In this document: piece after piece, positions 5,554 through 49,013 of the stretch
Position numbering within the stretch: the stretch's first letter is position 1
Layout of the letters: each line of letters starts with the position of its first letter
Assembly: GCF_028736035.1 (NCBI RefSeq)
Contig: NZ_CP117866.1
Location: 1,302,001 to 1,366,000 of the forward strand
DNA from: Streptomyces sp. T12
GTDB taxonomy: Bacteria; Actinomycetota; Actinomycetes; Streptomycetales; Streptomycetaceae
Length of the DNA stretch: 64,000 bases
Direction: 5' to 3'
The notes under the pieces: model-generated
What the model saw: only the letters and a program-made list of their open reading frames with translations
Databases searched by the model: none
Told to the model about the DNA's origin: nothing
Translations under genes and position numbers: made by a program

Positions 5554-5595
5554 CTAGACACACTGCTGACTGATGCCCGTTAATACATCCGATGT
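5554..5595 (+). promoter_or_regulatory. Fucosidase-type promoter with perfect fucose box
   Basis: CTAGACA (5554-5560), 19 nt, then TTAATACATCCGATGT (5580-5595). The final 11 bases are a perfect palindrome centred on 5590. The same arrangement with the same 19-nt gap lies upstream of the fucosidases at 18563 and 46498. TAGACA is a candidate -35 and TTAATA/TAATAC a candidate -10, so a protein on the palindrome would block the start. The gene it once served seems to be the fossil at 5684; the intact fucosidase at 6065 is now about 470 bp downstream. Confidence 0.7.
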
Positions 5596-5683
5596 TACTC
5601 GCCGAACACACGCTGTGTGTAAGCGAGCGGCGGCGCCTCTCTCGGGACGCCGAGTGCCGTCCTGCGAACCGCCAGGAGAATTC

Positions 5684-5735
5684 TTGTCAGAGCTGATCAC
5701 CTGCGAAGGGGCGCTCGTCGGCATGGCGGTCGCCG
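5684..5735 (+). pseudogene. Fossil 5' end of a further GH29 fucosidase gene
   Basis: AGGAGAATTC precedes TTG TCA GAG CTG ATC ACC, reading MSELITCEGALVGMA. This matches, base by base with a few changes, the leader of the fucosidase starting at 48837 (AGGAGAAGACC, TTG TCA GAG CCG ATC ACT, reading MSEPITRRRVLVGMA). The twin-arginine codons are lost and no fucosidase sequence follows. Together with the promoter at 5554-5595 this looks like the promoter, ribosome site and signal-peptide start of a lost paralogue. Confidence 0.55.
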
Positions 5736-6064
5736 ACGGCGGGCTCCGCCCTGCGCCCAGGGCCCTCTCCCAGCCTCGGGCGACACCACGTCCCGCGAGG
5801 CGGCTCTCGTCCCATGCCGATCACGCCTCCCAGGGAGGCCCGATCGCCAACCGTGGGTGGGCACCTTCCACATGGCACACGCCCTGCCGACAGGTCCCGC
5901 TGGAGGCACCGTTTTCATGACCCTTCAGACGGCCCCGGCCCCGGCCCCTGCCCCTTGCAGGGACACCTGCCGCCCTGCGCACACCCCGACACCCAGGCCG
6001 GCGTCAACAGCCCCAGGACGTCGTCGTCACAGCAACCAATGCCATCGATCCACAGGAGTGGGCC
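5736..6064. other. Leader region without a gene
   Basis: No convincing gene. It links the fossil fucosidase start to the intact fucosidase and could be transcribed as a long 5' leader from the promoter at 5554. CACAGGAGTGGGCC immediately before 6065 supplies the ribosome site of the next gene. Confidence 0.4.
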
Positions 6065-8017
6065 ATGTCCTCACCAAGAATGTCTCGCCGTACGTTTCTC
6101 GGCGCTGCGGGTGCGGCGACCGCCGCGACCGCCCTGCCACTCGTCCCCGGCTTCTCCGGCCTTCTGTCGCAAGCGTCCGCCGCGGACACACAGACCAACC
6201 TGAGCAAGATGGTCGACATGCGGTTCGGCATGTTCAACCACTTCAGCCTGGGCACGTTCACCAACGAGGAGTGGGCGGAACCCAACCAGAGCCCCACCCT
6301 CTTCGCTCCCCCGAGTGTCAACTGCGCGCAGTGGGCCGACGCGGCGGCCGCCGCGAAAATGAGCTACGGCATCCTGACCACCAGGCACCACGACGGCTTC
6401 GCCCTGTGGCCGAGCGCCCACGGCACCCAGAACGTCGCGAACAGCTCGTACAAACACGACGTCGTCCAGGCGTACTGCGACGCCTTCCGCGCGAAGGGGC
6501 TGAAGGTCGGGCTGTACTACTCGGTCTGGGACCGCACCTTCGGCGTCGAGGCATGGGAAAGCCGGCACAAGGTGTCCGGGCTCCAGATCACCGATGCCAT
6601 CCACCCCGCCCACATGACCTTCGTCCTCGGTCAGCTCCGCGAGCTGCTCACCAACTACGGCACCATCGACATTCTGATGACCGACGGCTACGCATGGCAG
6701 ATGGGGCAGCAGGCCGTCTCCTACCAGGCGATCCGTTCGCTGGTGAAGGAGCTGCAGCCGGACTGCGTCATGATCGACCTCGGCGCGCTGTCGGAGCCCT
6801 TCCTCGGCGACGCGATCTTCTTCGAGGAGCCGATGGGCATCACGGCGCCGGCGGGCAACACCTACGCCGCCACGCAGGGGCAGACCATCAGCAACGGCTG
6901 GTTCTGGCACCCCTCCACCCCGACCGAGAGCCTCATGAGCAAGGCCTCGATCCTCTCGCACCTGGCCGACCTGGAACCGAAGTACACCTCGTTCATCCTC
7001 AACTGCCCGCCCAACCGCAACGGCCTGCTGGACACCAACGTCGTCAACCGGCTCGCCGAGGTCGGCGCGGCCTGGAGCCCCAACACCTCCAGGCCGCCGC
7101 TGCCCACCCAGATACTGCGCGCCGAGCACCCGGTCACACCGGTCAACGCTTACGCCACCGGCTACCACACCGGCGAGGGCCCGTTCCACGCCATCGACGG
7201 ACTCAGCGACAACCGCTACGAGACCTGCTGGTCGACCTGGGGGCTGCCGGCGCCGCTGCCGCAGTCCATCACCATCGACCTCGGCGGCGTGTGGAGCAAC
7301 GTCTCCACCCTGGAGTACCTGCCCAAGCAGTGGGGCCGCAACAACTCCACCGACGGCGACATCACCTCGTACACCATCCTCACCAGCACCGACGGGGTCA
7401 ACTTCACCCAGGTCGCCACCGGCACCTGGGCCGGCAACCGCAAGACCAAGGTGGTCGAGTGGCCCAACCGGAACGTGGGCTTCGTACGGATCCAGGCCAA
7501 CGCGGCCACCGGCGGCTACGCCAACGTCAGCGGCCTCCGGATCGGCGGCCGGTCGGTCAGGCCGGCCCTGGTCTCCACCACGCTGCCCGGCGACGGCACG
7601 GTTTACCGCCTGGTCGCCCGGCACAGCGGCAAGTCCGTCGACGTGGAGGGCAGGCGCACCACCGACGGCACCAAGGTCCTGCAGTGGCCCTCGCTCGACC
7701 AGACGAACCAGAAGTGGACCTTCGTCAAGACCGGTGACGGCTACTACAAGATCAAGGGTGTGGGCAGCGGCAAGCTCCTGGAGGTCCAGGGTCTGTCCCG
7801 CGCGGAAGGCGGCACCGTCGGCATATGGGGAGACGCCAGCGCTCCCCAGCAGCACTGGGCCGTCACGCCCACCGGTGACGGGTACTACGTCCTCATCGAC
7901 CGCTACAGCGGACTCTGCCTCGCCGTCGACGAGGGCAGCACCGCCAACGGAGCCAACATCGAGCAGCAGCCGTACGCGTCACAGACGCACCAGCAATGGC
8001 AGATCGTCCCCTCCTGA
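6065..8017 (+). CDS. Secreted GH29 alpha-L-fucosidase with discoidin-like and ricin-B-like modules
   Basis: Exported glycosidase predicted to release terminal L-fucose from plant or other glycans. The 650-aa protein has a Tat signal (MSRRTFLGAAGAAT, cleavage near residue 40), a GH29 barrel (DMRFGMFNHFSLGTFTNEEW, TTRHHDGFALWP, LKVGLYYSVWDRTF) with candidate nucleophile D207 in LMTDGYAWQMG, a discoidin/F5-8C-like domain at about 350-495 (NVSTLEYLPKQW), and a ricin-B beta-trefoil at about 510-650 with QW repeats. Start ATG has AGGAG upstream. It is a near-collinear paralogue of the protein at 56646. The only fucose-type promoter nearby is 470 bp upstream. A reductase fossil follows. Substrate linkage cannot be read from sequence. 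Confidence 0.9.
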   Translation: MSSPRMSRRTFLGAAGAATAATALPLVPGFSGLLSQASAADTQTNLSKMVDMRFGMFNHFSLGTFTNEEWAEPNQSPTLFAPPSVNCAQWADAAAAAKMSYGILTTRHHDGFALWPSAHGTQNVANSSYKHDVVQAYCDAFRAKGLKVGLYYSVWDRTFGVEAWESRHKVSGLQITDAIHPAHMTFVLGQLRELLTNYGTIDILMTDGYAWQMGQQAVSYQAIRSLVKELQPDCVMIDLGALSEPFLGDAIFFEEPMGITAPAGNTYAATQGQTISNGWFWHPSTPTESLMSKASILSHLADLEPKYTSFILNCPPNRNGLLDTNVVNRLAEVGAAWSPNTSRPPLPTQILRAEHPVTPVNAYATGYHTGEGPFHAIDGLSDNRYETCWSTWGLPAPLPQSITIDLGGVWSNVSTLEYLPKQWGRNNSTDGDITSYTILTSTDGVNFTQVATGTWAGNRKTKVVEWPNRNVGFVRIQANAATGGYANVSGLRIGGRSVRPALVSTTLPGDGTVYRLVARHSGKSVDVEGRRTTDGTKVLQWPSLDQTNQKWTFVKTGDGYYKIKGVGSGKLLEVQGLSRAEGGTVGIWGDASAPQQHWAVTPTGDGYYVLIDRYSGLCLAVDEGSTANGANIEQQPYASQTHQQWQIVPS

Positions 8018-8120: not shown

Positions 8121-8390
8121 GTCGACACCGAGGGCTTCGCTCTGTCGATCGCCGAGGTCTGCGAACGGCGCGGTACGACCTTCCGGCGGCGATCGCCTTC
8201 CCGCTCGCCCATCCGGCTATCATCAACGTCACCCTGGGTGTACGGAGTCCGGAACAGGCGGCACGGAACGTGGAACTCCACCGTCGGCACATCTCCGAAG
8301 GTCTCTGGGACGACCCTGGCGCCCAAGGACTCATCAGGTCGGACACACCGACGCGGAACGGTCACGGAAGGAGCTCGCGGTGTCCCTGAC
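8121..8390 (+). pseudogene. C-terminal remnant of an aldo/keto reductase (L-fucose dehydrogenase type)
   Basis: From 8121 the frame reads VDTEGFALSIAEVCERRGTT; one base is then missing near 8181, and the next frame continues PAAIAFPLAHPAIINVTLGV, RSPEQAARNVELH and GLWDDPGAQGLI. This matches in order the end of the intact reductase at 24732-25778 (AVCERHGVPLRAAALRFPFG, ARTPEEVRDTVEQL, LWDELRAEGLLD). Only the last 80 or so residues survive, and the tail runs into the GntR start. It suggests that a second set of fucose catabolic genes once lay here. Confidence 0.7.
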
Positions 8391-9081
8391 GGACAAGGCG
8401 ATTGAGCAGATCCGCGAGCTGATCCGCACCGGTGCGCTGCCCCCCGGCTCGAAGCTGCCGCCCGAGCAGGACCTGGCAGCCCAGCTGGGTCTGTCCCGCA
8501 ACCTGGCCCGTGAAGCGGTCAAGGCACTGGCCGTCGCGCGCATCCTGGAGGTGCGACGGGGCGACGGCACGTACGTGACCAGTCTGCAGCCGAGCCTGCT
8601 CCTGGAGGGACTGGGCGGAGCAGTGGAGCTGCTGCAGGGCGACTCGGCCGCCCTCCAGGACCTCATGGAGGTACGGCGGCTCCTCGAACCGGTCGCCACC
8701 GCGCTCGCCGCCACCCGGATCACCGACGCGCAGCTGGCCGAGGTGAAACGGCATCTGGACGCCATGCGCGAGGCACGCGAGGACGTCGAGCGCCTCAATG
8801 CCCACGATGCCGCCTTCCACCGTGCCGTCGTCTCCGCCACGGGGAACGAGACGCTGCTCACCCTGCTGGAGGGCATTTCCGGCCGCACGCTGCGCGCCCG
8901 TATCTGGCGCGGCCTGGTCGACACCCACGCCGCGGGCCGGACCCTGGCCGAGCACGAAGCGATCTTCTCGGCGCTCGCCACCCGCGACGCCCAGCTCAGC
9001 CATGCCGCCGCCTTGCTGCATGTGAGCAGCACCGAACAGTGGCTGCGCCAGCACCTGCAGTCCACGGAGGTCACTCGGTGA
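8380..9081 (+). CDS. FadR-subfamily GntR regulator (FCD domain), candidate fucose regulator A
   Basis: Cytoplasmic one-component repressor of about 233 aa. The N-terminal winged helix reads ALPPGSKLPPEQDLAAQLGLS with recognition helix SRNLAREAVKAL and wing GDGTYV; the all-helical FCD ligand domain follows, with the D-x3-H metal pair in AHDAAFHRAVVSATGN and H in AEHEAIFSAL. GTG start at 8380 has GGAAGGAG six bases upstream. It follows the reductase fossil and a fucosidase and is a paralogue of the regulator at 33530. FCD proteins usually sense sugar acids or organic acids and bind short palindromes, which fits the ACATC(C/G)GATGT boxes. The link is inferred. Confidence 0.85.
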   Translation: MSLTDKAIEQIRELIRTGALPPGSKLPPEQDLAAQLGLSRNLAREAVKALAVARILEVRRGDGTYVTSLQPSLLLEGLGGAVELLQGDSAALQDLMEVRRLLEPVATALAATRITDAQLAEVKRHLDAMREAREDVERLNAHDAAFHRAVVSATGNETLLTLLEGISGRTLRARIWRGLVDTHAAGRTLAEHEAIFSALATRDAQLSHAAALLHVSSTEQWLRQHLQSTEVTR

Positions 9082-9273: not shown

Positions 9274-10992
9274 TCATGACAGCGGCGGGTACGCGTTCTG
9301 GATCAACTGCCGGAACTGGGCGGAGAACCAGTGTCCGGCCAGCGGCGAGTTCGGCAGTGCGCCCGTGGGGTTGTTGCCGTTGCGGGGGTTGCCCCCGTAC
9401 GTCGGGTCGCACATCCGGTCGAAGCCCTTGCCCTCGTCGTTGGGGATGGCGGCGCTGTTCCCGTCCGACTCCCCCGGCGGCTTGACCCACACGTAGGCGT
9501 CGATGCCGGAGGCCGGAGCAGCGGTCGGCCGTTCGCCGATGCCTGCGCCGCTCTGGTTGCACCAGTTGCCGGCGTGGATGCGCCGGTCGATGCGGCTGGC
9601 GTCGACGTAGCCGTCCACGGTGGTCTGCGCTCCGGGACCGGTGGGCCGGGCGGAGCCGCCCCAGCCGTTGCGCGAGGTGTCGATCAGCATGCCGAGTCCG
9701 GAGTCGAATCCGGCCGCGACGAGCTTGTCGCGCAGCGCCTGGGCGAAGGACTGCTCGTCCACGTACTGGTTCCAGTCCACCCACTTCGACTGACGTACGG
9801 TCTGACCGTTCACCGTGTCGGTGACCTTGAGGTAGGGCTCCTTGGTGGGGCTGTAGTTCGCGGTGTTGACGATGAAGCCGGCCACATCGTTCACGCTCGC
9901 GCCGTTCGTCGTCGCGACCTTGTGGAACTGCTGCACCGCGGGGCCGAGGTTGCTGTCCCAGCCGAGCCAGCCGTGGTGGGCGGCGTCGATGTAGTTGTAG
10001 ACGTTGGGGATGGCGCCCAGCTTGTCCAGGGCGTAGCTGACGCCCTTCTCGTAGTTGCCGTTGCTCTTCATGGTCACGCAGGCGTCGGTGGTGGTGGGGG
10101 TGCCGCCCGCATTGGTCACCAGGTTGGGCAGCGAGTCGGGCTCGATGACGGTGGCGATCCGCAGGCCCGCGTACTTGGACTCGGACAGGATCGACACGAT
10201 GGGGTCGATGTACTGGGACTTGTACTTGTCGATGTCGTTGGGCCCCAGCTCACCGTTGGAAGCGAGGGCGGCGCAGTCGCGGCCGGGCAGGTCGTAGATG
10301 ACGAGCTGGACGACGAGATCGCCGGAGCCCTTCTGCTTCAAGGCCTCGTCGAGGTGGGCGCGCAGTCCCATTCCGCCGCCGACGCCGTTGATGGCGGCGA
10401 TCCTGTCGAGCCAGACGGCGGTGGGCTGGCCCGCGATGCTACTGCCGCCCGGCTCGGCGGCGGCCTTGGCGGACCACTCGGGGTTCACGTAGGCCTTGGC
10501 GCCGGTGTAGGGGTTGTTGACCTTGCCGGAAGGGGTGCCGGGGTCGGTCGGTCCCGGGTCAGTGGGGCCGCCGCCGCCGACGTTGCAGACGACGCCGTCA
10601 AGCGTGAACGTGGCGGGTATCGCGTTGGTGCCGCTGTAGGAGCCGTTGAAGCCGAAGCTGACCGAACCGCCGCTCGCGAGAGTGCCGTTGTAGCTCTCGT
10701 TGGCGGCTGTGACGTCGGCACCGCTCTGGCTCACCTTCGCGTTCCAGCCGTTCGTGACCTTCTGGTTTCCGGCGTACGACCACTTCACCGACCAACCCGA
10801 CTTGGCTGCCGCGTTGTTGGTGATGGTCACCGCGGCGGTGAAGCCGGTGTCCCACTGGCTCTGCACCTTGTAGTCGACGGTGCAGGGGACGGCCGCGGTG
10901 GCAGCGCCCGCCTGACCGACGAGGAGCGCCGTCCCCGTCGTCCCGGCGACCAGCGCCAGGGCAGCGAGCAGCGATGTCCTGGTGTAACTCAT
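9274..10992 (-). CDS. Secreted GH6 cellulase (cellobiohydrolase type) with N-terminal CBM2
   Basis: Inverting exo-acting cellulase, 572 aa. A Sec signal peptide (cleaved after about residue 33) precedes a CBM2 cellulose-binding domain (about 35-136: CTVDYKVQSQWDTGFTAAV, GWSVKWSYAGNQ, GWNAKVSQSG), a short Gly/Pro linker with TDPGPTDPG, and a GH6 catalytic domain from about 160. Its signature VIYDLPGRDCAALASNGE carries the conserved aspartate; NWCNQSGAGIGERP and YVWVKPPGESDG are typical of the exo group. ATG 10992 has GAAGGAA upstream. It is divergent from the GH48 gene. I found no clear CebR box close to its start; the nearest, imperfect one is at 11532. Confidence 0.93.
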   Translation of the reverse strand: MSYTRTSLLAALALVAGTTGTALLVGQAGAATAAVPCTVDYKVQSQWDTGFTAAVTITNNAAAKSGWSVKWSYAGNQKVTNGWNAKVSQSGADVTAANESYNGTLASGGSVSFGFNGSYSGTNAIPATFTLDGVVCNVGGGGPTDPGPTDPGTPSGKVNNPYTGAKAYVNPEWSAKAAAEPGGSSIAGQPTAVWLDRIAAINGVGGGMGLRAHLDEALKQKGSGDLVVQLVIYDLPGRDCAALASNGELGPNDIDKYKSQYIDPIVSILSESKYAGLRIATVIEPDSLPNLVTNAGGTPTTTDACVTMKSNGNYEKGVSYALDKLGAIPNVYNYIDAAHHGWLGWDSNLGPAVQQFHKVATTNGASVNDVAGFIVNTANYSPTKEPYLKVTDTVNGQTVRQSKWVDWNQYVDEQSFAQALRDKLVAAGFDSGLGMLIDTSRNGWGGSARPTGPGAQTTVDGYVDASRIDRRIHAGNWCNQSGAGIGERPTAAPASGIDAYVWVKPPGESDGNSAAIPNDEGKGFDRMCDPTYGGNPRNGNNPTGALPNSPLAGHWFSAQFRQLIQNAYPPLS

Positions 10993-11531
10993 GAGTGCGG
11001 GTTTCCTTCTCTCGATGTGGACTTGCGGATGGAGGGCGCGCGAAGGGGCGCGCTGCCCGACGCTCTACGCGGTGGCTGCGCCGCCGCAGGCTGAGTTCAG
11101 GGAGGGACAGCAGGAGCAGTCCCGCGTGTTCGAGGTCCGGTCCGGACGGGACGGCGCGCGGTCGTCGAAGCACTTCACGCCCCGGTCGACGAAGGAGTGC
11201 GGCCCGTTCGTCTCAGCGGCGCCGCGTACGGCGCCGCGTCCGAGTAGCCGGCCGCTCGGCCCGTGTACTGACCGCGGGACCCATACGGTTCGAGCGGGGA
11301 CGTCCTGCCGGACGTCTCGATGTGGGCCGCCAAGACCTCGACGGTATTGATGGGCGCTACCGCGGGGTTCGCAGCGACACGCGGCCGTGGCTCCTCGGCC
11401 CGATGGCACCGGCAGGACCGCGCTCGGGACGAGCGCGACCGGACCGTCGCTGACTAAAAGTACTGAATGCGGGGGGTGTCGCATGAGCGAGTCCTTACAG
11501 CTTGGCGCGCCGCTACGGACGCGTCGAGTGA
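10993..11531. other. Divergent intergenic region, GH6 side
   Basis: Holds the leftward leader and promoter of the GH6 gene. I saw no reading frame with family motifs and no good CebR palindrome here. Confidence 0.4.
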
Positions 11532-11545
11532 TGGAACCGCTCCCA
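11532..11545. promoter_or_regulatory. Imperfect CebR-type box
   Basis: TGGAACCGCTCCCA matches the 14-bp palindrome TGGGAGCGCTCCCA at 12 positions. It lies between the divergent GH6 and GH48 genes, 143 bp from the perfect box, and could serve either gene. Confidence 0.55.
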
Positions 11546-11674
11546 CTGGTGAGGAGGAAGTTAGCGCCAACTGACGGGGTTTCATAGGGTCCTTGCGAAA
11601 CTTTCGCCCCCATCAGCTCAGTTCGAACTTTGAACTCCTCGACGCCTTGACGGCACTTGCCTCCATCCCCACGA

Positions 11675-11688
11675 TGGGAGCGCTCCCA
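11675..11688. promoter_or_regulatory. Perfect CebR-type operator upstream of GH48
   Basis: TGGGAGCGCTCCCA, a perfect 14-bp palindrome 57 bp before the GH48 start. In Streptomyces this sequence is the operator of the cello-oligosaccharide-responsive LacI repressor CebR; the LacI-family protein at 14904 is the local candidate reader. Confidence 0.9.
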
Positions 11689-11745
11689 CTGGATTCAGGC
11701 CTTGGCATCTCTCCGTGAGTCGCGTGACGCAAGGAGGAACAGCAC

Positions 11746-14664
11746 ATGGATCCCGGACGCAAACGCAGAGCCGTACGGCGGCTTTGGACCGCCGTCGCCG
11801 CCGCGTTCGCCCTACCCCTGTCGATGCTCGCCACCGGCACGACCACCGCGAACGCGGCGTCCGTGCAGTGCAGCGTCGACTACAAGACCAACGACTGGGG
11901 TTCCGGCTTCACCGCCGACCTCACCCTCACCAACCGCGGCACCACCGCGATCGACGGCTGGACGCTGACGTACGGCTACGCGGGCAACCAGAAGCTCAGC
12001 AACGGCTGGAACGGCACCTGGTCGCAGTCCGGCCAGGCGGTCACCGTGAAGGACGCCGGATACAACGGCAAGATCGCCGCGGGAGCCGCGGTATCCACCG
12101 GCGCGCAGTTCACCTACAGCGGCACCAACGCCGCCTCCACCAACTTCGCGATCAACGGCACCAGTTGCACCGGCGCCCACCAACCCCCCATCACCGTGCT
12201 GACCAGCCCGGCGGCGGGCGCCGTCTACACCCAGGGAAACGCGGTCCCGCTCGCGGCCACCGCCGCGGCCGCGGACAACGCCACCATCAGCAAGGTCGAG
12301 TTCTACGACGACACCACGCTGCTGGACACGGACACGACGGCGCCCTACTCGCTCTCGGCCTCAAGCTTGACCGTGGGCAGTCATTCGCTGCTCGCGAAGG
12401 CGTACGACAGCCTCGGCGCGTCCGGGGAGTCCACGCCGGTCGGTATCACGGTCGCCTCGGGTCCCGCCGTGGTGGCCTCGACGAACCAGCTGGCGGTGCA
12501 GCAGGGCAAGACGGGCACGTTCGAGGTGAAGCTGTCGACCCAGCCGTCGGCGAACGTCACCGTCACCACGGCCCGGGCGAGCGGCAATTCGGGGCTGTCG
12601 GTGACCGGCGGCGCCTCGCTCACCTTCACCCCCTCGAACTGGAGCACCGCGCAGAAGGTGACCATCACGGCAGACTCCTCCGGCACGGGGGCGGCGACCT
12701 TCGAGTCGACGGCCGCCGGGCACGGCAAGGCGACGGTGACGGTCACCCAGATCGCGGCGTCCAAGGCCTACGACGCCCGGTTCCTGGAGCTGTACGGCAA
12801 GATCACCAACCCGGCCAACGGCTACTTCTCCCCCGAGGGCATCCCCTACCACTCGGTCGAGACGCTGATCGTCGAGGCTCCGGACCACGGCCACGAGACC
12901 ACGTCGGAGGCGTACAGCTATCTGCTCTGGCTCCAGGCCATGTACGGGAAGATCACCGGCGACTGGGCCAAGTTCAACGGCGCCTGGGAGATCATGGAGA
13001 AGTACATGATCCCCACCCACGCCGACCAGCCCACCAACTCCTTCTACAGCCCCTCCAAGCCCGCGACCTACGCGCCCGAGGAGGACACGCCGAATCAGTA
13101 TCCGACCGCGCTCGACACGTCCGTACCCGTCGGCTCGGACCCGCTCGCCAGTGAGCTGAAGTCGGCCTACAACACGGACGACGTCTACGGCATGCACTGG
13201 ATCCAGGACGTCGACAACACCTACGGTTTCGGCAACACCCCGGGCGGCAAGTGCGAGGCCGGCCCGACGGAGACCGGGCCGTCGTACCTGAACACCTTCC
13301 AGCGCGGCCCGCAGGAATCGGTGTGGGAGACGGTGCCGCAGCCGACCTGCGACGCCTTCAAGTACGGCGGCAAGAACGGCTACCTGGACCTGTTCACCGG
13401 TGACGCCTCCTACGCCAAGCAGTGGAAGTACACCACCGCCCCGGACGCCGACGCCCGTGCGGTGCAGGCCGCGTACTGGGCGGACCTGTGGGCGAAGCAG
13501 CAGGGCAAGGGCTCGGCCGTGTCGGGCACGGTCGCCAAGGCGGCCAAGATGGGCGACTACCTGCGGTACGCCATGTACGACAAGTACTTCAAGAAGATCG
13601 GCAACTGCGTGGGAGCCTCGTCCTGCCCGGGCGGCACCGGCAAGGACGCCTCGCATTACCTGTTGTCCTGGTACTACGCCTGGGGCGGCTCCACCGACAC
13701 CAGTGGAGGCTGGGCCTGGCGGATCGGATCCAGCTACGCCCACAGCGGCTACCAGAACCCGCTGGCCGCCTACGCGCTCAGCAACCACGCCGACCTGAAG
13801 CCCAAGTCGTCGACCGGCGCGGCCGACTGGAGCAAGTCGCTCCAGCGGCAGATGGAGTTCTACCAATGGCTCCAGTCGGACGAGGGCGCCATCGCCGGCG
13901 GCTCGACCAACAGCTGGGCGGGCCGCTACGCGACTCCGCCGGCCGGGAAGTCGACGTTCTACGGCATGTACTACGACCAGCAGCCCGTCTACCACGACCC
14001 GCCGTCCAACCAGTGGTTCGGCTTCCAGGCGTGGTCCATGGAGCGGGTCGCCGAGTACTACCAGCAGACGGGGAACGCGCAGGCCAAGGCGGTCCTCGAC
14101 AAGTGGGTCAAGTGGGCGCTGTCCAAGACCACGATCAACCCGGACGGCAGCTACCAGATCCCCTCCACCCTCCAGTGGTCGGGCCAGCCCGACACCTGGA
14201 ACCCGTCAAGTCCGGGTGCCAACAGCGGACTTCACGTCACCGTCGCCGACTACACCAACGATGTCGGCGTGGCGGCCGCGTACGCCAAGACGCTCACGTA
14301 CTACGGCGCCAAGTCCGGTGACGCCGAGGCGAAGTCGACGGCGAAGGCGCTGCTGGACGGTATGTGGGGCAACTACCAGGACAGCCTCGGTATCGCTGTT
14401 CCCGAGACCCGCAGCGACTACGGCCGGTTCAACGACAGCGTCTACGTGCCGAGCGGCTGGACGGGCAAGATGCCGAACGGCGAGACCATCGACTCGTCCT
14501 CGACGTTCTCCTCGATCCGGGCCTTCTACAAGAACGACCCGGCCTGGTCGAAGATCGAGGCCTACCTCAAGGGCGGCGCCGCGCCCGTCTTCACCTACCA
14601 CCGGTTCTGGGCCCAGGCGGACATAGCCCTGGCCATGGGCTCGTACGCGGAACTCCTCGAGTAG
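11746..14664 (+). CDS. Secreted GH48 reducing-end cellobiohydrolase with CBM2 and two Ig-like domains
   Basis: Processive cellulase of 972 aa. Signal peptide about 1-38; CBM2 about 39-143 ([30 protein letters not shown]); a cadherin/Ig-like domain about 147-238 ([31 protein letters not shown]); a second beta-sandwich about 243-338 ([20 protein letters not shown]); the GH48 domain from about 342 to the end ([57 protein letters not shown]). AAGGAGG lies eight bases before the ATG. The length is usual for a multidomain actinobacterial GH48. A perfect CebR box sits 57 bp upstream. With GH6 it gives the two opposite exo-activities. Confidence 0.95.
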
Positions 14665-14719
14665 CCTCCGCCGGCGCTCCGCGTACGCGACCCCGTCACC
14701 AGGCGACGGGGTCACCCAG

Positions 14720-14753
14720 CCGGGCGGCCCCACCCGCACCAGGGGCCGCCCGG
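14720..14753 (+). terminator. Intrinsic terminator after GH48
   Basis: CCGGGCGGCCCC, a 10-nt loop, and GGGGCCGCCCGG form a perfect 12-bp stem 55 bp after the GH48 stop. No U-tract follows, as is common in Streptomyces. Confidence 0.75.
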
Positions 14754-14787
14754 CCCTCGCGCGCGCATCCCACACGACCAAGCAAAA

Positions 14788-14801
14788 CGGGAGCGCTCCC
14801 A
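14788..14801. promoter_or_regulatory. CebR-type operator upstream of the LacI gene
   Basis: CGGGAGCGCTCCCA (13 of 14 consensus bases) lies 102 bp before the LacI-family start, which suggests autoregulation. Confidence 0.85.
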
Positions 14802-14903
14802 ACCTTTGGGTGCAGCGCGACCGCCTGTAACCATGCCACTGGCGAAGTCATGTGCTCGATCACCTCCGGCCGGTAAGATCGGTGATCTCTTGGGGGAGGT
14901 GGC

Positions 14904-15926
14904 ATGGGCAGACGGCGCCCGGGGACACCGACGCTGGAGGAGGTGGCTGCCCACGCGCGGGTGGGACGGGGCACGGTCTCCCGCGTCATCAACAACGCGG
15001 CGGGCGTGAAGGAGTCGACGCGCCGGGCCGTGCAGCAGGCCATCGAGGAACTGGGTTACGTGCCCAATCTCGCAGCCCGTTCCCTGGCCGGGCGGCGCGC
15101 CGACGCCGTCGCCCTGGTCATGACGGAGCCGGACTGGCGGCAGTTCGCCGAGCCCTTTTTCTCCGAGATCGTCCGCTCGCTCGGAGACGCGCTGACAGAC
15201 ACCGGGCTCCAGCTGCTGCTGACCCTGGTCCGCTCGGACGCCGAGCGGCAGCGCTTCCTCGAGTACGCGCGCGGAGGCCGGGTCGACGGAGTCCTGCTGA
15301 TGTCCGTGCACGCCGGTGATCCGCTGCCGGACATGCTCGCCGAAGCCCGGTTGCCGACCGTGCTGCTGGGGCGCCGCTCGGGCGAGGAGTACGTCAGCTA
15401 CGTCGACGCGGACAACATCGGCGGAGCCCGCAGCGCAGTGTCCCACCTGCTGCGACAGGGCCGCAGAGTGATCGCGACCATCACCGGCCCGCTCGACCTG
15501 TACGCCGCCCAGTGCCGGCTGCGCGGCTATGAAGAGGCCCTGGCGTCGGCGGGCCTGGACGGCGAGCCGACCCGTGTCGCCGAAAGCGACTTCACGGCGG
15601 AGAGCGGACGCCGGGCCATGGCCGAGCTCATCGAACGACATCCGGATATCGACGGCGTCCTCGCCGCGTCCGACACCACGGCCGCGGGGGCCCTGGAGGC
15701 CCTGCGCGCGGCCGGACGCCGTGTGCCCGAGGATGTCGCCGTGATCGGCTTCGACGACTTTTCGCTGGCTCAGCGGACCGAACCACCGCTGACCACGGTG
15801 CGGCAGCCGATCGAGGAGATCGGGCGGGCCATGATCCGACTCCTCCTGGAGGAGATGGAGGAGGGCGCCGTGGCCTGGCGTCACGTCATCCTCCGTACGG
15901 AGCTGGTGGTACGCGAGTCGACCTGA
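14904..15926 (+). CDS. LacI-family transcriptional repressor, CebR-like
   Basis: DNA-binding repressor of 340 aa. The LacI helix-turn-helix is at residues 9-30 (TLEEVAAHARVGRGTVSRV), followed by the hinge (YVPNLAARSLAGRRADAVAL) and a periplasmic-binding-like effector domain (DGVLLMSVHAG, AVIGFDDFSLAQRTEPPLTTV). GGGGAGG lies four bases before the ATG. CebR boxes sit in front of this gene and of the GH48 and GH12 genes, so it probably senses cello-oligosaccharides and controls this island. No cebEFG transporter or bglC gene is nearby, so it may be a paralogue of the main CebR rather than CebR itself. Confidence 0.88.
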   Translation: MGRRRPGTPTLEEVAAHARVGRGTVSRVINNAAGVKESTRRAVQQAIEELGYVPNLAARSLAGRRADAVALVMTEPDWRQFAEPFFSEIVRSLGDALTDTGLQLLLTLVRSDAERQRFLEYARGGRVDGVLLMSVHAGDPLPDMLAEARLPTVLLGRRSGEEYVSYVDADNIGGARSAVSHLLRQGRRVIATITGPLDLYAAQCRLRGYEEALASAGLDGEPTRVAESDFTAESGRRAMAELIERHPDIDGVLAASDTTAAGALEALRAAGRRVPEDVAVIGFDDFSLAQRTEPPLTTVRQPIEEIGRAMIRLLLEEMEEGAVAWRHVILRTELVVREST

Positions 15927-18562: not shown

Positions 18563-20332
18563 TCAGCCGACCTTGGTCATGTTCCACTGCTGCGGGGCAC
18601 CGCCGTTGGGGGTCCACTGGATCATCTGGGTGTTGTCCGCGGCGTTGTTGGCGTTGTCCAGCGCCTTTCCGCTGTGCCGGTTGATGAGCCGGAACGCGCC
18701 GTTGCCCAGCGCGGTGACGGCCCACTGCTGCTGACGACTGCCGTTGTCGGTGCGCTGCACCATCACCGCGCTGTCGGCGGTGCTGTTGTTGTCATCGAGG
18801 GCCTTGCCGCTGCGCACGCAGACCAGCTTGTAGTAGCCGTGGCCCAGGTCGGTGACCGTCCACTGCTGCGGCGTGCCACCGTTGGCGGTCCACTGGATGA
18901 TCGCGGTGCCGTCGCTGCCGGTGTTGCCGTTGTCGAGGGCCTTGCCGCTCTGGGCGCAGACCAGCCGGTATACACCGCCTGCCAGGACGGCCGGCATGCC
19001 GTTGACCTCCACGCAGACCACGGAGTCGTTCGCGTTGGGCGCTGTGCTCGGCACGCTGACGTTGATCTGCCCGCCGCTGACCCAGTAGTTGAGGTTGGTG
19101 CCGGGGTTGTTCATCAGGTAGACGCGGTTGATCGTGTTGTACACCGCCGGGATCTGCAGGGTGCCGCCCGTGGGCCAGTTGAAGACGTGGGCGAAGAGCT
19201 TGCCGTTCTTCTTGGTGATCCTGCCCCAGGAGGGCCCGGTGGCGAAGGGGCTGCCGCTGGTGCCGTGGATGCTGTCGCTGTGGGTGGCCATCCACGAGGC
19301 CAGGCCGTTCAGAATGGTCACGGATCCGGCGGTCACGGAGCCGTCGCCCTTGGGGCCGATGTTGAGCAGGTAGTTGCCGTCCCGGGAGACGACGGTGACC
19401 ATCTCCTGGATGATGTCCTTGACGGGACGGTAGAGGCCCTCCGCCCAGTCGGTGTAGCCCCAGTTGCCGTTCATGGTGGCGCAGGTCTCCCACGGCCGGT
19501 CCATCGGCTCGGCGGGAACCGTCTGCTCCGGGGTGACGAAGTCACCGAGACCCTGGTCCCGCTTGACACGTTCGTTGACGACGAGGCCGGGCTTGCGCTG
19601 CATCAGCCAGTTGTACAGGTCCTCGCCGTCGGCCTTGGTCCACCAGCCGCACCAGTCGCCGTCGAACCACAGGACGGCCGGGTCGTAGCGGTCCAGCAGT
19701 TCCTGCAGCTGGCCCTTCATGTCGTTGATGTAGCCGGTGCGGGCCGCCGGGTCGATGGTGGAGTCGTAGAAGGGGCCGGGACGACAGGTCTGCGAGGGGT
19801 GGTTCCAGTCCATGATCGAGTAGTAGAGCCCGAACTTGACGCCCCGGTTCGTGCACTCGGTCTTCAGCTGGGCCAGCAGGTCGGGCTGGAAGTTGTTGTA
19901 GTCGTGCAGGTTGTACTGCTTGGTGCCGGTGGTGTCTTTGAAGCCCGCGACGTCGGAGTCCCACATCGCGTAGCCCTCGTGGTGCTTGGCGGTGATCACG
20001 AGGTACTTCATGCCGGCGTTCTTGGCCAGCTCGGCGATCTGGGCGGCGTTGAAGGTCGTCGGGTTGAACTGCTTGGTCACATTGTTCTGCCAGTCGGCCT
20101 TGGACCAGTTGTTCTGGCTGAACTCCCACTCGCCCTTGCCGTAGTAGGAGTAGGACCCGAAGTGGATGAACATCCCGAACCGGGCCTGGTACCACCAGTC
20201 CAGCTTCGCATCGACGGTGTAGGCCTCGGCCGTCGTGGGCCACAGGGCCTGCGGCAGACCGAACGCCACGGTACCGCCGGCGAGGGCTGCGGCCTTGATG
20301 AGGGAGCGCCTGCTGAGGGGTGCGGAGGACAT
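18563..20332 (-). CDS. Secreted GH29 alpha-L-fucosidase with ricin-B-like module
   Basis: Exported fucosidase of 589 aa. The Tat signal reads LSRRSLIKAAALAGG, with cleavage near TAEA. The GH29 barrel carries LDWWYQARFGMFIHFGSYS, VITAKHHEGYAMWDS, VKFGLYYSIMDWNHPSQ and candidate nucleophile D224 in LWFDGDW, then a C-terminal beta-sandwich. The last 130 residues are a ricin-B trefoil with three SGKALD/QQW repeats. ATG 20332 has AGGAG seven bases upstream; a longer in-frame ORF reaches 20419 but lacks a ribosome site. It has its own fucose-box promoter and lies head-to-tail after the lut end of the fucose operon. Closest local relative is the protein at 44134. Confidence 0.92.
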   Translation of the reverse strand: MSSAPLSRRSLIKAAALAGGTVAFGLPQALWPTTAEAYTVDAKLDWWYQARFGMFIHFGSYSYYGKGEWEFSQNNWSKADWQNNVTKQFNPTTFNAAQIAELAKNAGMKYLVITAKHHEGYAMWDSDVAGFKDTTGTKQYNLHDYNNFQPDLLAQLKTECTNRGVKFGLYYSIMDWNHPSQTCRPGPFYDSTIDPAARTGYINDMKGQLQELLDRYDPAVLWFDGDWCGWWTKADGEDLYNWLMQRKPGLVVNERVKRDQGLGDFVTPEQTVPAEPMDRPWETCATMNGNWGYTDWAEGLYRPVKDIIQEMVTVVSRDGNYLLNIGPKGDGSVTAGSVTILNGLASWMATHSDSIHGTSGSPFATGPSWGRITKKNGKLFAHVFNWPTGGTLQIPAVYNTINRVYLMNNPGTNLNYWVSGGQINVSVPSTAPNANDSVVCVEVNGMPAVLAGGVYRLVCAQSGKALDNGNTGSDGTAIIQWTANGGTPQQWTVTDLGHGYYKLVCVRSGKALDDNNSTADSAVMVQRTDNGSRQQQWAVTALGNGAFRLINRHSGKALDNANNAADNTQMIQWTPNGGAPQQWNMTKVG

Positions 20333-20449
20333 CGTGCGGCTCCTGGAGGGTGAAGGACACAGGGTGTCGGTAACGGCTCGTCCGCGACACCACACAGACG
20401 GCGGAGTACGGCGGCTCATGTCCGGCCGGGGCTCAGACAGCTCCCAGGG

Positions 20450-20491
20450 ACATCGGATGTATTAACAGACACCGCCGCGCCCCTTGTCTAG
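20450..20491 (-). promoter_or_regulatory. Fucosidase promoter with perfect fucose box
   Basis: On the minus strand: CTAGACA (20491-20485), 19 nt, then TTAATACATCCGATGT (20465-20450), whose last 11 bases are the perfect palindrome centred on 20455. It lies 118 bp before the fucosidase start. Confidence 0.8.
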
Positions 20492-20555: not shown

Positions 20556-20566
20556 ACATCGGAGGT
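20556..20566. promoter_or_regulatory. Distal fucose box (imperfect)
   Basis: ACATCGGAGGT has one mismatch to the palindrome. It is centred exactly 106 bp upstream of the proximal box, the same spacing as at the 48.9 kb promoter. Confidence 0.5.
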
Positions 20567-28847: not shown

Positions 28848-28917
28848 TCATCGGATGTATGGCGGCACAGTGACCTTAGACGCGAGGATCGCGCCTGACA
28901 ATGGATTCCTCGGATGT
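28848..28917 (-). promoter_or_regulatory. Promoter and two fucose boxes of the nine-gene operon
   Basis: On the minus strand TTGTCA (28901-28896), 17 nt, TAAGGT (28878-28873) forms a good vegetative promoter. One box (TCATCGGATGT, 28848-28858, one mismatch) lies just downstream of the predicted start and another (TCCTCGGATGT, 28907-28917, two mismatches) lies just upstream of the -35; centres are 59 bp apart. Confidence 0.7.
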
Positions 28918-29301
28918 ATTTCGTCGGCCATGCCGGTCAAGCGCTCACAACGGCAAATTCCCCGTGGTCACGCATGGCCACGGGGCCGACACGTGACCCG
29001 CCATCCGATGAATCCAATGCGGGTCGCAGGACCACTCCTCCCCTGGTGAGAGCGAGACCGGCGGGCATCCACCGGCCACCCCGAGAGGGGTACGGCCCCC
29101 CGAGGACACGCCCTGCCACCGCCCCCCACCGGTCCAAGAGGGCCCCGTTGTCGAATTGTGAGCTGCCGCAGCGCATCGCCCGTCACCCACGGAGGCCGGA
29201 ACTCTGCAGGTCGTAGGGGGTGTCAGCACGGAGTCACGAGGTCGGGACGGCACCTCGGCGCCCTACGGCGTGACGTCCCGCAAATCTCTGGCGGCGAACT
29301 C
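28918..29301. other. Divergent intergenic region of the fucose locus
   Basis: Separates the operon promoter from the transporter promoter. Short minus-strand frames here carry no recognisable motif. I see no further perfect fucose box. Confidence 0.4.
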
Positions 29302-29358
29302 TTGTCAACGTCGGCAACGCCGTCGTAACGTCCTCGACGTCCGGGATACATCGGAGGA
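29302..29358 (+). promoter_or_regulatory. Promoter of the ABC transporter operon with a weak fucose box
   Basis: TTGTCA (29302-29307), 18 nt, TAACGT (29326-29331), then ATACATCGGAGGAAT; its 11-bp core at 29348-29358 has two mismatches to the fucose palindrome and sits about where transcription would begin. Confidence 0.55.
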
Positions 29359-33529: not shown

Positions 33530-34231
33530 GTGGCACTGACGGACGAGGCGATCGACAAGATCAAGGCGATGATCGTCGCCGGTGAACTCGCGCCCGGCTC
33601 GCGGCTCCCCAAGGAGGAGATCCTCGCCAGACAGCTCGGCCTGTCCCGGAACTCCCTGCGCGAGGCAGTCCGGGCGCTGACGGCCATGCGCATTCTGGTC
33701 ACCCGGCAGGGCGACGGCACGTACGTCTCCAGTCTGGAGCCCCATCTCCTGCTGGAGAGCCTCTCCTTCGCCGCGGATGTCTCCCAGGGCCATACGGCTC
33801 TGCAGTTGCTCCAGGTACGACGACTGCTCGAACCGCAGGCGACGGGGCTGGCCGCCGCGCTGCTCAAGCCGAAGGATCTCCAGGAACTGCGCAACATCCT
33901 CGACCGGTCCCGGACCGTCGCCACCGTGGAGGAGTTCGTCGCCCACGACATCGCCTTCCACCTCAGGATCGTCGAAGCGGTCGGCAACCCCGTGCTGTCG
34001 ATGCTGCTGCAAGTGCTCTCCACCCGCACCCAGCGTGTCCGCATCGTCCGCGGCAGCCAGGCCAGTCACGCCCTGAACAGCGCCCATGAGGACCACGAGC
34101 AGATCCTCAGCGCGCTTCAGTCACGCGACGCCCTGCTCGCCACCGCTGCGGCGACCGTCCACATCACGGCCGTGGAGCAGTGGCTGGCCACGAGTCTGTC
34201 CGACGACCCGATACGAGCGATCGACGACTGA
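33530..34231 (+). CDS. FadR-subfamily GntR regulator (FCD domain), candidate fucose regulator B
   Basis: Repressor of 233 aa, paralogous over its length to the protein at 8380. The winged helix reads ELAPGSRLPKEEILARQLGLS with recognition helix SRNSLREAVRAL and GDGTYVSSL; the FCD domain has D-x3-H in AHDIAFHLRIVEAVGN and H in HEDHEQILSAL. GTG 33530 follows AGAGAGG by seven bases. It is downstream of the transporter behind a hairpin, which makes it the best-placed reader of the fucose boxes. The two recognition helices are close enough that both proteins may bind the same site. Confidence 0.87.
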   Translation: MALTDEAIDKIKAMIVAGELAPGSRLPKEEILARQLGLSRNSLREAVRALTAMRILVTRQGDGTYVSSLEPHLLLESLSFAADVSQGHTALQLLQVRRLLEPQATGLAAALLKPKDLQELRNILDRSRTVATVEEFVAHDIAFHLRIVEAVGNPVLSMLLQVLSTRTQRVRIVRGSQASHALNSAHEDHEQILSALQSRDALLATAAATVHITAVEQWLATSLSDDPIRAIDD

Positions 34232-46274: not shown

Positions 46275-46317
46275 ACATCGGATGGATTTATATTAGTGGG
46301 GCGATAGCCACGTCTAG
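46275..46317 (-). promoter_or_regulatory. Fucosidase promoter with fucose box (one mismatch)
   Basis: Minus strand: CTAGACG (46317-46311), then 25 nt that include TATAAAT, then CCATCCGATGT (46285-46275), one mismatch to the palindrome. The gap is one base longer than at the other two copies. Confidence 0.65.
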
Positions 46318-46414: not shown

Positions 46415-46425
46415 ACATCGGATCT
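46415..46425. promoter_or_regulatory. Distal fucose box (one mismatch)
   Basis: ACATCGGATCT, centred 140 bp upstream of the proximal box at 46280, in the gap between two leftward fucosidase genes. Confidence 0.5.
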
Positions 46426-46488: not shown

Positions 46489-46497
46489 GGAACGCCG

Positions 46498-48837
46498 TCA
46501 CAGGGCGATGAGTTGCCAGTCCTGGTTCGACCCGTCGGTGGTGGGCCACTGGATGACCTTGACACCGTCCGTGGTGGCGGCGTCCTTGACGTCGGCGCAC
46601 CAGCCGTTGCGGACGTTGACCAGCCGGTAGTAGCCGCTGGTCTGGGAGGGGACCAGCTTCCACCACTGGTTGTCGCCGCCGTCGTCGGTCGACTGGTCGA
46701 GGGCCGCGCCCTGGGCGGAATTGTCCGGGCTCTGAAGGACCTTGCCACTGCGGACGTTGACCAGCCGGTAGGAGCCGTCGGCATTCGGCAGCAGCTTCCA
46801 CTGCTGGTTGGTGCCGCCGGTCGAGGGCCACTGGATGATGGCGGCGCCGTCGGCGCTGGAGGCGTCGCTGACGTCCATGACCTTGCCGCTCTTGCGGTTC
46901 ACCAGCCGGTAGGTGCCCAGATCCGCGGTGAAGGGCCGGTCGTAGACCTCCAGGCTGCGGATGGACGCCCATACCGTGGCAGGGAGCCCGGTGACCGTCA
47001 CCCGTATGTAGCGGGCCTGCGCCCGGAAGGCGGAGACCTGTACCTGACTGGTGCTGGTCGTGGCGGTGCGGTCGGCGAGCGTGGTCCAGGTGCTGTTGTC
47101 GGTGGAGCCCTCGATCCGGTAGCGGTAGTTCGTTGCGTCCAGCTCCCAGGCGATACGGGTGCCGGTGAGGGACTTGGTGGTCCCCAGGTCCACCTTCAGC
47201 CAGTGTCCGGTGTTGCCGTTGCTCGCGCACCAGCGCGTCGCGGTGGATCCGTCCACGGCCTTCGCCGCGGTGTTCCCCTTGGAGGTCTCCTCGCTGCTGG
47301 CGGTGACCGTCCTGCCGGCGGCAACGTCAGCGGGCTGCACGGAGCGGTCCAGTGTCACGCCGACGACGCTGTCCTCGGGAATGCGGGTGCGGTTGATACC
47401 GGTGATCGTCACCTTCCCGTCCGCGTCCACGGTGTACGACAGGTCGGCACCCGACGCGACATCGAAGACGCGAGTCACCTTCGCGTCCCCGGTCGAGGGT
47501 GTCGTGAAGCCGGTGCCGCTGTAGCCGGGCAGCAGGTGGATGTAGAAGGTGCTGCCCTTGTACGTGTAGCCGTACTGGCCGTCGACAGGCTGCCAGGGGC
47601 CGCCGCTGGTGCCGTAGACGGCGTCGCCGCAGGTGGTCATGAAGGAGCCGATCCGGCGCACCAGGTCGGCCTGGTTGGCGGGTACCACACCGGTGCGGTC
47701 CGGTCCGACGTTGACCAGGCAGGTCATGTTCCGCACCCAGGCGTTGACCAAGATGTTCATGGCCGTGCCGAAGCTCATCACGGGCGCGCCGGCCTTGTAG
47801 CCCCAGGCGCCGCCGATGGTGAAGCACTTCTCGGCCACCTTGCCGGTACGGATCGCACCGGACGGGACGGAGGGGCCCTCCTCACTGGTGAAGTCGCCGA
47901 TCCAGCCCGAACGCAGGGTGGTGACGATGTCCGGCTGGTGCTTGCGCACCAGCCCGGTCAGGCCCAGCGGCTTGCCGGTGGCGGGATCGGTCTCGCTGTA
48001 GGCGGAATCCACCGGCCACTCGTTCGCCGGGTCGCGGAACTTGCCCGGCTCCCAGAAGAAGGCGGCGGACGCGTCGGAGCCCTGCTGGCCGAGCCAGCCG
48101 CCGTCCCACCACAGGTCGTCGATCTTGCCGTACTGGGTGACCAGCTCCCTGACCTGCTGGTACAACTCGTTCTTCATGATCCGCGCGTTCTCCTTGTGCG
48201 CGGGATCCGTGACGTAACCCCACTTGTTGGGCAGGCAGTTGGTGCCGCGGACGTCGTAATAGCCCGGGTAGCGCCAGCTCAACGGCGAGCAGTACAGGCC
48301 CACCTTCAGCCCGGCGTTGCGCACGGCGGTGACGTACTGGCTGATGAAGTCCTTCTGGAGCGGGGCCTGCCCGGCGTGCCAGGCGTTCGGGTGGGTGGAC
48401 GGCCACAGCGCGAAGCCGTCGTGGTGGCGGGCCGTGAGCACCGTGTACTTCGCACCCATGTCCTTGGCCAACTGGGCCCAGTCGGCCGGGTTGTAGGCGC
48501 TGGCGGTGAACTGCTCGCCGGTGGCGTCGGTGACGTACTTCTTGTAGTTCTCCGGGGTGACGGCGGCGTTCTCCATGTACCACTCGCCCTTGGCCGGGCC
48601 GGAGTAGACGCCCCAGTGGATGAACATGCCGAGCTTGGCGTCCTGCAACCACTGGATCTTGTCGTCGGGCTGCTGTTCGACCCCCAGGTCGATCTTGGGG
48701 ATCCGCAGCGGGGGGAGCGGGAGCGGCTGGGGAGCGGCGGCGTAGGCGGGGGTCGCGCATGTGGGGGTGATGGCTGCGGCGGCCGTCATGGCCGCCATGC
48801 CGACAAGCACTCTTCGGCGAGTGATCGGCTCTGACAA
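46498..48837 (-). CDS. Secreted multi-domain GH29 alpha-L-fucosidase with discoidin and ricin-B-like modules
   Basis: Largest fucosidase here, 779 aa. Tat signal SEPITRRRVLVGMAAM; GH29 barrel with DAKLGMFIHWGVYSGPAKGEW, LTARHHDGFALWPS, KVGLYCSPLSW and candidate nucleophile D245 in DDLWWDGGWLG; a C-terminal sandwich; a discoidin (F5/8C) domain at about 505-635 (AAKAVDGSTATRWCASNG, WLKVDLGTTKSLTG); and a ricin-B trefoil at about 645-779. I chose TTG 48837 because AGGAG lies seven bases upstream; a GTG at 48870 is open but has no such site. Its leader is copied in the fossil at 5684. Confidence 0.9.
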   Translation of the reverse strand: MSEPITRRRVLVGMAAMTAAAAITPTCATPAYAAAPQPLPLPPLRIPKIDLGVEQQPDDKIQWLQDAKLGMFIHWGVYSGPAKGEWYMENAAVTPENYKKYVTDATGEQFTASAYNPADWAQLAKDMGAKYTVLTARHHDGFALWPSTHPNAWHAGQAPLQKDFISQYVTAVRNAGLKVGLYCSPLSWRYPGYYDVRGTNCLPNKWGYVTDPAHKENARIMKNELYQQVRELVTQYGKIDDLWWDGGWLGQQGSDASAAFFWEPGKFRDPANEWPVDSAYSETDPATGKPLGLTGLVRKHQPDIVTTLRSGWIGDFTSEEGPSVPSGAIRTGKVAEKCFTIGGAWGYKAGAPVMSFGTAMNILVNAWVRNMTCLVNVGPDRTGVVPANQADLVRRIGSFMTTCGDAVYGTSGGPWQPVDGQYGYTYKGSTFYIHLLPGYSGTGFTTPSTGDAKVTRVFDVASGADLSYTVDADGKVTITGINRTRIPEDSVVGVTLDRSVQPADVAAGRTVTASSEETSKGNTAAKAVDGSTATRWCASNGNTGHWLKVDLGTTKSLTGTRIAWELDATNYRYRIEGSTDNSTWTTLADRTATTSTSQVQVSAFRAQARYIRVTVTGLPATVWASIRSLEVYDRPFTADLGTYRLVNRKSGKVMDVSDASSADGAAIIQWPSTGGTNQQWKLLPNADGSYRLVNVRSGKVLQSPDNSAQGAALDQSTDDGGDNQWWKLVPSQTSGYYRLVNVRNGWCADVKDAATTDGVKVIQWPTTDGSNQDWQLIAL

Positions 48838-48971
48838 GGTCTTCTCCTGACTGTCCACAAGACAGCACACAGGTGCTGCGGCTCAGCGTCGGGGCCGAAC
48901 AGATCGGATGGGTCACCACAAGACGGCGAGACACAGGGGAGCCGCACGGAGGCGCGTGTTTCGCCTAGATG

Positions 48972-49013
48972 ACATCGGATGTATTAATCAGCAACAGACC
49001 ATGCCGTGTCTAG
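48972..49013 (-). promoter_or_regulatory. Fucosidase promoter with perfect fucose box
   Basis: Minus strand: CTAGACA (49013-49007), 19 nt, TTAATACATCCGATGT (48987-48972). Identical in every fixed base and in gap length to the promoters at 5554 and 20450. Confidence 0.82.

Follow-up and report, generated by a model that had tools for sequence, protein, structure and literature searches.

The window considered here is a stretch of 64,000 nucleotides from Streptomyces sp. T12 (NZ_CP117866.1, positions 1,302,001 to 1,366,000), which is placed in a contig of 11.36 Mb; the whole assembly has 11.46 Mb. From 5 to 59 kb, the window encodes five alpha-L-fucosidases of glycoside hydrolase family 29 (GH29), which have ricin-type lectin domains, and one GH43 enzyme. 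The same region includes a fucose-type catabolic divergon. Its left arm encodes an FAA hydrolase, an enolase-family dehydratase, an aldo-keto reductase, an amidohydrolase and LutA/B/C-like lactate genes; its right arm encodes a sugar ABC (ATP-binding cassette) transporter and the GntR/FCD regulator 33530. Our subject is a stereotyped promoter located before four of the fucosidase genes, in which a −35-like box, CTAGACA, is followed at a fixed distance by a −10-like box and a palindromic operator, here called O1.

The exact pattern CTAGACA-N(17-21)-TTAATACATC occurs three times in the window, at 5554-5589 on the forward strand and at 20456-20491 and 48978-49013 on the reverse strand, each time with a gap of N19; the number expected by chance is 0 (0 in 100 dinucleotide shuffles). 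As the first-pass annotation of this DNA had reported, the three N19 promoters have 23 of 23 fixed bases in common (CTAGACA and TTAATACATCCGATGT) and different spacers, whose pairwise identity is 6, 7 and 8 of 19 bases. A fourth promoter, described there as one base longer with small changes, is indeed CTAGACG-N20-TAAATCCATCCGATGT at 46275-46317 on the reverse strand, with three mismatches. The palindrome had also been placed on the probable −10; it does lie next to that region or overlap it, but in the N19 form the box there, (g)TTAAT, departs from a canonical −10. Two parts of the promoter were absent from that annotation, namely an upstream operator (O2) and a conserved TGTC-N6 element. All four window promoters present such a further operator copy, with at most one mismatch, and the whole set of features is as follows:

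5554..5560, forward strand: P1 −35-like box, CTAGACA
5580..5584, forward strand: P1 −10-like box, TTAAT
5585..5595, forward strand: P1 operator O1, ACATCCGATGT
5465..5475, forward strand: P1 upstream operator O2, ACATCCTATGT, 120 bp from O1
20485..20491, reverse strand: P2 −35-like box, CTAGACA
20450..20460, reverse strand: P2 operator O1, with TTAAT at 20461-20465
20556..20566, reverse strand: P2 upstream operator O2, ACCTCCGATGT, 106 bp from O1
49007..49013, reverse strand: P3 −35-like box, CTAGACA
48972..48982, reverse strand: P3 operator O1
49078..49088, reverse strand: P3 upstream operator O2, ACATCCGATGT, 106 bp from O1 and also upstream of the divergent GH43 gene 49194
46275..46317, reverse strand: P4, CTAGACG-N18-TATAAA-TCCATCCGATGT, a canonical-looking −35/−10 form, with O1 at 46275-46285
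46415..46425, reverse strand: P4 upstream operator O2, AGATCCGATGT, 140 bp from O1

Counted over the whole window with at most one mismatch, ACATCCGATGT gives 14 strand-hits at 10 places, against 0.69 expected, and no shuffle reached 14. Within 49078-49194, the O2 of P3 also stands upstream of a promoter-like stretch of the GH43 gene, TTGACG-N17-TACCGT (identified by eye), and it may serve both genes.

The same annotation had read the fixed bases and spacing as a product of selection and as a signature that could be searched genome-wide. Both proposals are borne out by a survey of 295 Streptomyces genomes, with the reversed pattern as control. Up to two mismatches, there are 54 sites in 29 genomes and 2 control matches. 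The exact pattern, with N17-21 permitted, has 10 sites in 6 genomes, all ten with N19, and no control match; these counts, together with the window shuffles, exclude chance. When N10-30 was permitted, 6 of 6 exact sites had N19, four of them from the T12 genome itself. The strict pattern was present in 2 of 394 genomes of the class, both within Streptomyces, and looser relatives of the promoter adjoin regulators of clade A (described below) in other genera.

A search in which neither TTAAT nor the exact gap was specified, CTAGAC-N(17-47)-ATCCSATGT with 31 spacings permitted, returned 48 matches and 2 in the control. The gap was 27 in 37 matches and 28 in four, so that 41 of 48 fell at two of the 31 spacings, and the remaining 29 gaps shared seven. 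TTAAT is at the same place in 32 of the 37 gap-27 sites, though it was not part of the query. The four gap-28 sites, which include 46275 of the window, present CTATAAATCC (three) or AATATAAATCC (one), that is, TAGACG-N18-TATAAA. It is mainly because of these gap-28 sites that CTAGACA is read as the putative −35 box and TTAAT or TATAAA as the putative −10 box. A HrdB/sigma-70 promoter has a TTGACN-like −35 box and a TANNNT-like −10 box with 16-19 bp between them. In a check for boxes of this type, TAGACG-N18-TATAAA was found at four sites and its N17 equivalent at one, and the N19 form has (g)TTAAT, without the TA.

One of the 54 sites (L164, CTAGATA..., genome G058) was rejected as a chance match, with no operator or hydrolase behind it; it is kept in the counts of 54 sites and 29 genomes and left out of the 53 promoters and 28 genomes. 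Conservation by column was examined in these 53 promoters. The ATGT that completes the 3′ half of O1, which is outside the query, is present in 50 of them, and TGTC at −10 to −7, six bases before CTAGACA, in 30, against 0.18 expected. Their flanks have diverged. Clustering of the 53 regions at 70% ungapped identity over 306 bp left 51 clusters; indels lower this measure. The motif is a genus-level promoter class of Streptomyces under strong selection. By comparison, its consensus anatomy is O2, about 50 bp, and TTnnTGTC-N6-CTAGACA-N19-TTAAT-O1, where O1 is NNATCC[G/C]ATGT; the minority form is CTAGACG-N18-TATAAA-O1.

O2 was defined as the best upstream match to ACATCNGATGT with at least 8/10 bases, and the control sequences were made by shuffling bases within blocks of 37 nt. 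It is present in 36 of the 53 promoters, against about 2.2 expected in block-shuffled sequence; these 36, like all four promoters of the window, thus have the LldR-like trait of two operators flanking the promoter. The O2-O1 distance is 106-112 bp in 26 of the 36, and the other ten are 66, 66, 73, 120, 122, 129, 130, 141, 141 and 196 bp. In other genera, four clade A loci have paired sites 108, 118, 142 and 142 bp apart (L145, L141, L146 and L147; our own subtraction). Over all 36 rows, the distances fit a helical period, with p=0.0003 at 10.5 bp, 1.3e-5 at 11 and 0.022 at 10. An earlier phase test had used a hand-picked list, without the distances 66, 66, 73 and 196 and with some 7/10 sites and the 140 bp of the window, and the phasing is weaker when all 36 rows replace that list. 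The phasing is a hint of looping, not proof.

The genes behind the 54 sites were assigned by tblastn with reference enzymes, which identified 29 GH29, 14 GH127, 5 GH62 and 2 GH95 enzymes and one sugar-binding protein; the downstream genes of three sites (L164, L180 and L172) are in none of these families. At the 27 loci where Pfam was applied to the downstream gene, 26 genes were of the five kinds and that of L180 had a weak match to an ABC-2 membrane protein. The name fucosidase promoter, given in the first-pass annotation, suits 29 of the 54 genes but is too narrow for the class; in the T12 genome, for instance, the operator of a GH127 promoter is at 675867. The base beside the operator centre differs according to the enzyme. 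GH29 promoters have G in 24 of 29 cases, A in four and C in one, and the 22 other promoters have G in one, C in 19 and T in two (p=1e-8 for G in GH29 against the others, our own tally of locus rows). A single base in the operator may tell two sister regulators apart. The two candidates, and the operator-like sites of the fucose divergon, are the following:

33530..34231, forward strand: GntR/FCD regulator, clade B, the predicted favoured binder of the fucose operators
8380..9081, forward strand: GntR/FCD regulator, clade A, a paralogue 51% identical to 33530 and the predicted favoured binder of the ATCCCATGT form
28848..28858, reverse strand: fucose-divergon operator, one mismatch; other Streptomyces loci have comparable sites about as far before the regulator
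28907..28917, reverse strand: weaker operator-like site in the divergon, two mismatches
29001..29011, forward strand: weaker operator-like site in the divergon, two mismatches
29348..29358, forward strand: weaker operator-like site before the sugar ABC operon, two mismatches; exact sites of L087 and L088 at a similar distance are taken as its equivalents

Both proteins belong to the GntR/FadR-FCD group (33530, FCD 2.7e-25 and GntR 2.2e-17; 8380, FCD 4.8e-26 and GntR 3.1e-18). The two best NCBIfam models for both are LldR and NanR, far under the cut-off; with 91.6 bits (33530) and 102.5 bits (8380) against an equivalog cut-off of 311, neither is a member of LldR. The nearest relatives of 33530 in named genomes are nearly all from Streptomyces. 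Around these relatives, the palindrome ACATCSGATGT has 17 exact matches in 14 of 80 loci, and 29 permuted palindromes have 0-4. In the 48 loci of close relatives it was matched 45 times with up to one mismatch, against a permuted mean of 3.7 and a highest count of 20; 28 of the 45 (24 loci) are 4.1-4.7 kb before the regulator, where site 28848 of the window is found. Thirty more distant loci were scanned within 700 bp of the regulator, and a site is present in 15 and absent from 15. Its centre is 21-28 nt before the regulator start in four Micromonospora relatives and one from S. luteolifulvus.

The distant loci of clade B with a site (L118, L125-L130 and L138) present ATC[C/G]GATG in 8 of 8 cases, and those of clade A present ATCCCATG in 6 of 7. 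These six, from Plantactinospora, Herbidospora and Microbispora (63-69% identity to 8380), have CTAGAC[A/G] or CTGGACA, 17-18 bp, TATAAA or TAGAAA, and then ATCCCATG, on the divergent strand. The seventh, L132 (Virgisporangium, 60%), deviates with ATCAGACGT, and the centre is different (CAC, CGC) in some second sites at clade A loci. At L143 the regulator about 7 kb from the promoter-like site is of clade B, and this locus was therefore left out of the clade A comparison. Residue 60 is Arg in clade A and Gln in clade B, and is aligned with FadR His65, a wing position in the contact table of Suvorova et al. (PMC4494728). The difference is correlated with the clade and therefore names a candidate, not a cause; L111 is clade B by identity (72%), yet has Arg60. 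Judged from the sites that accompany each clade, 33530 and 8380 are probably not interchangeable, the 33530 clade being associated with ATCCGATGT (fucose) and that of 8380 with ATCCCATGT (arabinose enzymes).

In the 295 genomes, clade A was assigned at a best match of E<1e-110 and clade B at E<=1e-80; the 60-69% relatives from other genera were assigned to clade A by their helix-turn-helix and wing residues. Clade B is present in 26 of the 295 genomes and in 15 of the 28 promoter-positive ones (p=3e-11), and clade A in 45 and 24, respectively (p=5e-19), in tests that ignore phylogeny. One or the other is present in 54 genomes and in 26 of the 28 promoter-positive ones; neither was found in two, one of which is 79% complete. 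In addition, 17 of the 54 promoters have a gene of either clade no more than 20 kb away, against about 0.5 expected.

With a probability of about two in three, we propose a promoter class for secreted fucosidases and arabinofuranosidases that would be looped by paralogous GntR/FCD regulators on two operators. Its −35 box would be CTAGACA, and its −10 box (g)TTAAT or TATAAA. On O1, a GntR/FCD dimer would block the −10/start region, and a second dimer on O2, mostly 106-112 bp upstream, would contact the first, forming a loop that keeps the promoter off. Release could be caused by a sugar-acid intermediate of the fucose pathway, and fuconate or a later product is our guess. The 33530-clade protein would read ATCCGATGT at the fucosidase promoters and at its own divergon for fucose catabolism and transport; the 8380-clade paralogue would read ATCCCATGT at the GH127, GH62 and GH95 promoters, and the base beside the operator centre would separate both regulons. 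A more specific version is tentative, and we hold it with less than even confidence: the modular core would be frozen except for one operator base, the paralogues with Gln60 (33530) and Arg60 (8380) would sort the fucose and arabinose regulons by G or C, and repression of both regulons would involve a loop in helical phase, about ten turns long.

Several observations weigh against this proposal. O2 is missing at the 8/10 level from 17 of the 53 promoters, and when only unique distances are counted the phasing falls to p=0.058 at 10.5 bp, 0.008 at 11 and 0.31 at 10. The (g)TTAAT box, 18 bp from TAGACA, is without the TA of TANNNT. Seven of the 29 GH29 promoters are in genomes with no clade B match at E<=1e-80, and four of these have G (L151, L161, L029 and L169); the genome of the GH127 promoter L170 (G243) has neither clade. 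Among the genomes with clade B, 11 of 26 gave no promoter match, and among those with clade A, 21 of 45. Fifteen further genomes have a best match of E 1e-105 to 1e-79 (61-77% identity), 0 of 15 have the promoter, and counting them as clade A would weaken the association of that clade. The palindrome enriched near the regulators, ACATCSGATGT, is outside the FadR-subfamily consensus TKGT-N3-ACMA, for which exceptions are listed (Suvorova et al. 2015, PMC4494728). Sites of E. coli LldR placed in a lacUV5 reporter gave neither repression nor looping: they were ineffective proximally, and distal ones gave no stronger repression (PMC7804116).

Other explanations compete with repression by looping. 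A GntR/FCD protein with a dual, LldR-like role would activate on O2 and repress on O1, and the promoter would need the regulator, or a second activator at TGTC-N6-CTAGACA. The non-canonical (g)TTAAT, the TGTC-N6 conserved before CTAGACA in 30 of 53 promoters, the distance of 106-112 bp for 26 of the 36 O2 copies and the rank of LldR and NanR as best models, though far under the cut-off, are in its favour. We consider it unlikely, since the N18-TATAAA form has a normal −10 and retains the same operators, and since the O2 distance varies from 66 to 196 bp, which is wider than classical activator sites usually tolerate.

It would be less probable still that CTAGACA-N19-TTAAT and the palindrome are bound by different factors, or that the promoter belongs to an alternative sigma factor, with the GntR genes as neighbours by synteny only. 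Neither CTAGACA nor CCGTTAAT is a textbook HrdB box, as such a model would have it, but the palindrome tracks GntR relatives into other genera, where 15 of 30 loci have it a short way upstream of the regulator, and the operator base tracks the clade. As for recent duplication, in which the promoters would be similar by shared ancestry without function, several of the downstream enzymes are paralogues of one family; the spacers that agree at just 6-8 of 19 bases, the 51 clusters among 53 regions and the unrelated enzyme families within the class make it very improbable.

Among known systems, the class appears to work most like the dual-operator control of E. coli LldR. That regulator, in work by Aguilera in 2008, is reported to act on two operators flanking the lldPRD promoter, with looping proposed. 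The likeness is in the GntR and FCD domains, the operators flanking the promoter and the related chemistry, since the fucose operon of the window ends in lactate-use genes. The differences are the operator, which is ACATCNGATGT and not TKGT-N3-ACMA, the position of O1 next to the −10 region, and the model scores far below the LldR cut-off. In DasR/dre and CebR-type control, one repressor governs many scattered extracellular hydrolase genes of Streptomyces, with regulators of other families (HutC-type GntR and LacI) and with other operators. These systems are not known to have a stereotyped promoter core.

The FadR-subfamily GntR regulons with double sites share with the class a palindrome with a 3-nt centre, common double sites and autoregulated divergons. 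They differ in that the AC/GT pairs are here outside the centre (ACAT-N3-ATGT), and a fixed coupling to a promoter core is not among the features described in the available part of that account (PMC4494728). A literature search over titles and abstract openings, with subscription journals thinly covered, returned no account of this promoter or its regulator, which is not proof of novelty. The class offers a handle, from sequence only, on co-controlled secreted enzymes of Streptomyces that cleave fucose and arabinofuranose. It also provides a natural series of dual-operator promoters with several spacings, on which looping could be tested in a high-GC Gram-positive. In addition, it offers a one-base operator change as a candidate switch between paralogous GntR proteins, in a motif outside the published subfamily consensus.

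The palindrome alone was tried as a regulon marker. With one mismatch it has 53 strand-hits in the T12 genome and 6 in the control, and was set aside as a weaker marker than the whole promoter. Two exact sites are outside the window: 1221698 is in no filtered open reading frame (ORF) and lacks the stereotyped promoter, and 1560411 is inside an ORF. Site 59953 (one mismatch), inside gene 59592-62555 with a PPDK_N domain, was taken as chance. The dre site of DasR is TGGTCTAGACCA, and CTAGACA was rejected as half of such a site, the left half being absent by eye. GACGTCGGATGTC occurs twice in tandem with 13-bp spacing at 2054411-2054434 of the T12 genome (L025/L026), outside filtered ORFs, and represents an unrelated regulon or chance.

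The genomes also contain GntR/FCD groups outside clades A and B, one with 72-77% and a widespread one with about 54% identity to 8380; some match to 8380 at E<=1e-60 is present in 178 of 295 genomes. Of 30 loci around regulators of the 8380 type, five (L054, L055, L056, L061 and L063) have a palindrome of ACATCGCATGT or ACATGCGATGT, four with CAG...CTG flanks. The palindrome also occurs at 665233 of the T12 genome, 2-3 kb from the paralogue 662191, and is possibly a third operator flavour. A distant GntR/FCD gene (L027 1490-1530, position 3567500 of the same genome) is preceded by GACATCAGATGTC, which suggests ATCNGAT-type operators for related regulators.

The fucosidase genes behind the four window promoters are:

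6065..8017, forward strand: GH29 alpha-L-fucosidase, 3′ of P1, leader of about 475 nt
18563..20419, reverse strand: GH29 fucosidase, 3′ of P2
44134..46182, reverse strand: GH29 fucosidase, 3′ of P4
46498..48870, reverse strand: GH29 fucosidase, 3′ of P3

The leader of about 475 nt (5596-6064) extends from P1 to the TAT-type (twin-arginine translocation) start of gene 6065, and the leaders of orthologues range from about 150 to about 720 nt. The analysis found no stereotyped promoter for the fifth GH29 gene (56532); upstream of this gene, at 56345-56355, there is ACATGCCATGT, with the centre GCC rather than CCG. Adjoining the fucosidase region, at 9274-17302, is a cellulase cluster (GH6, GH48 and GH12 with CBM2) with a LacI-type regulator.

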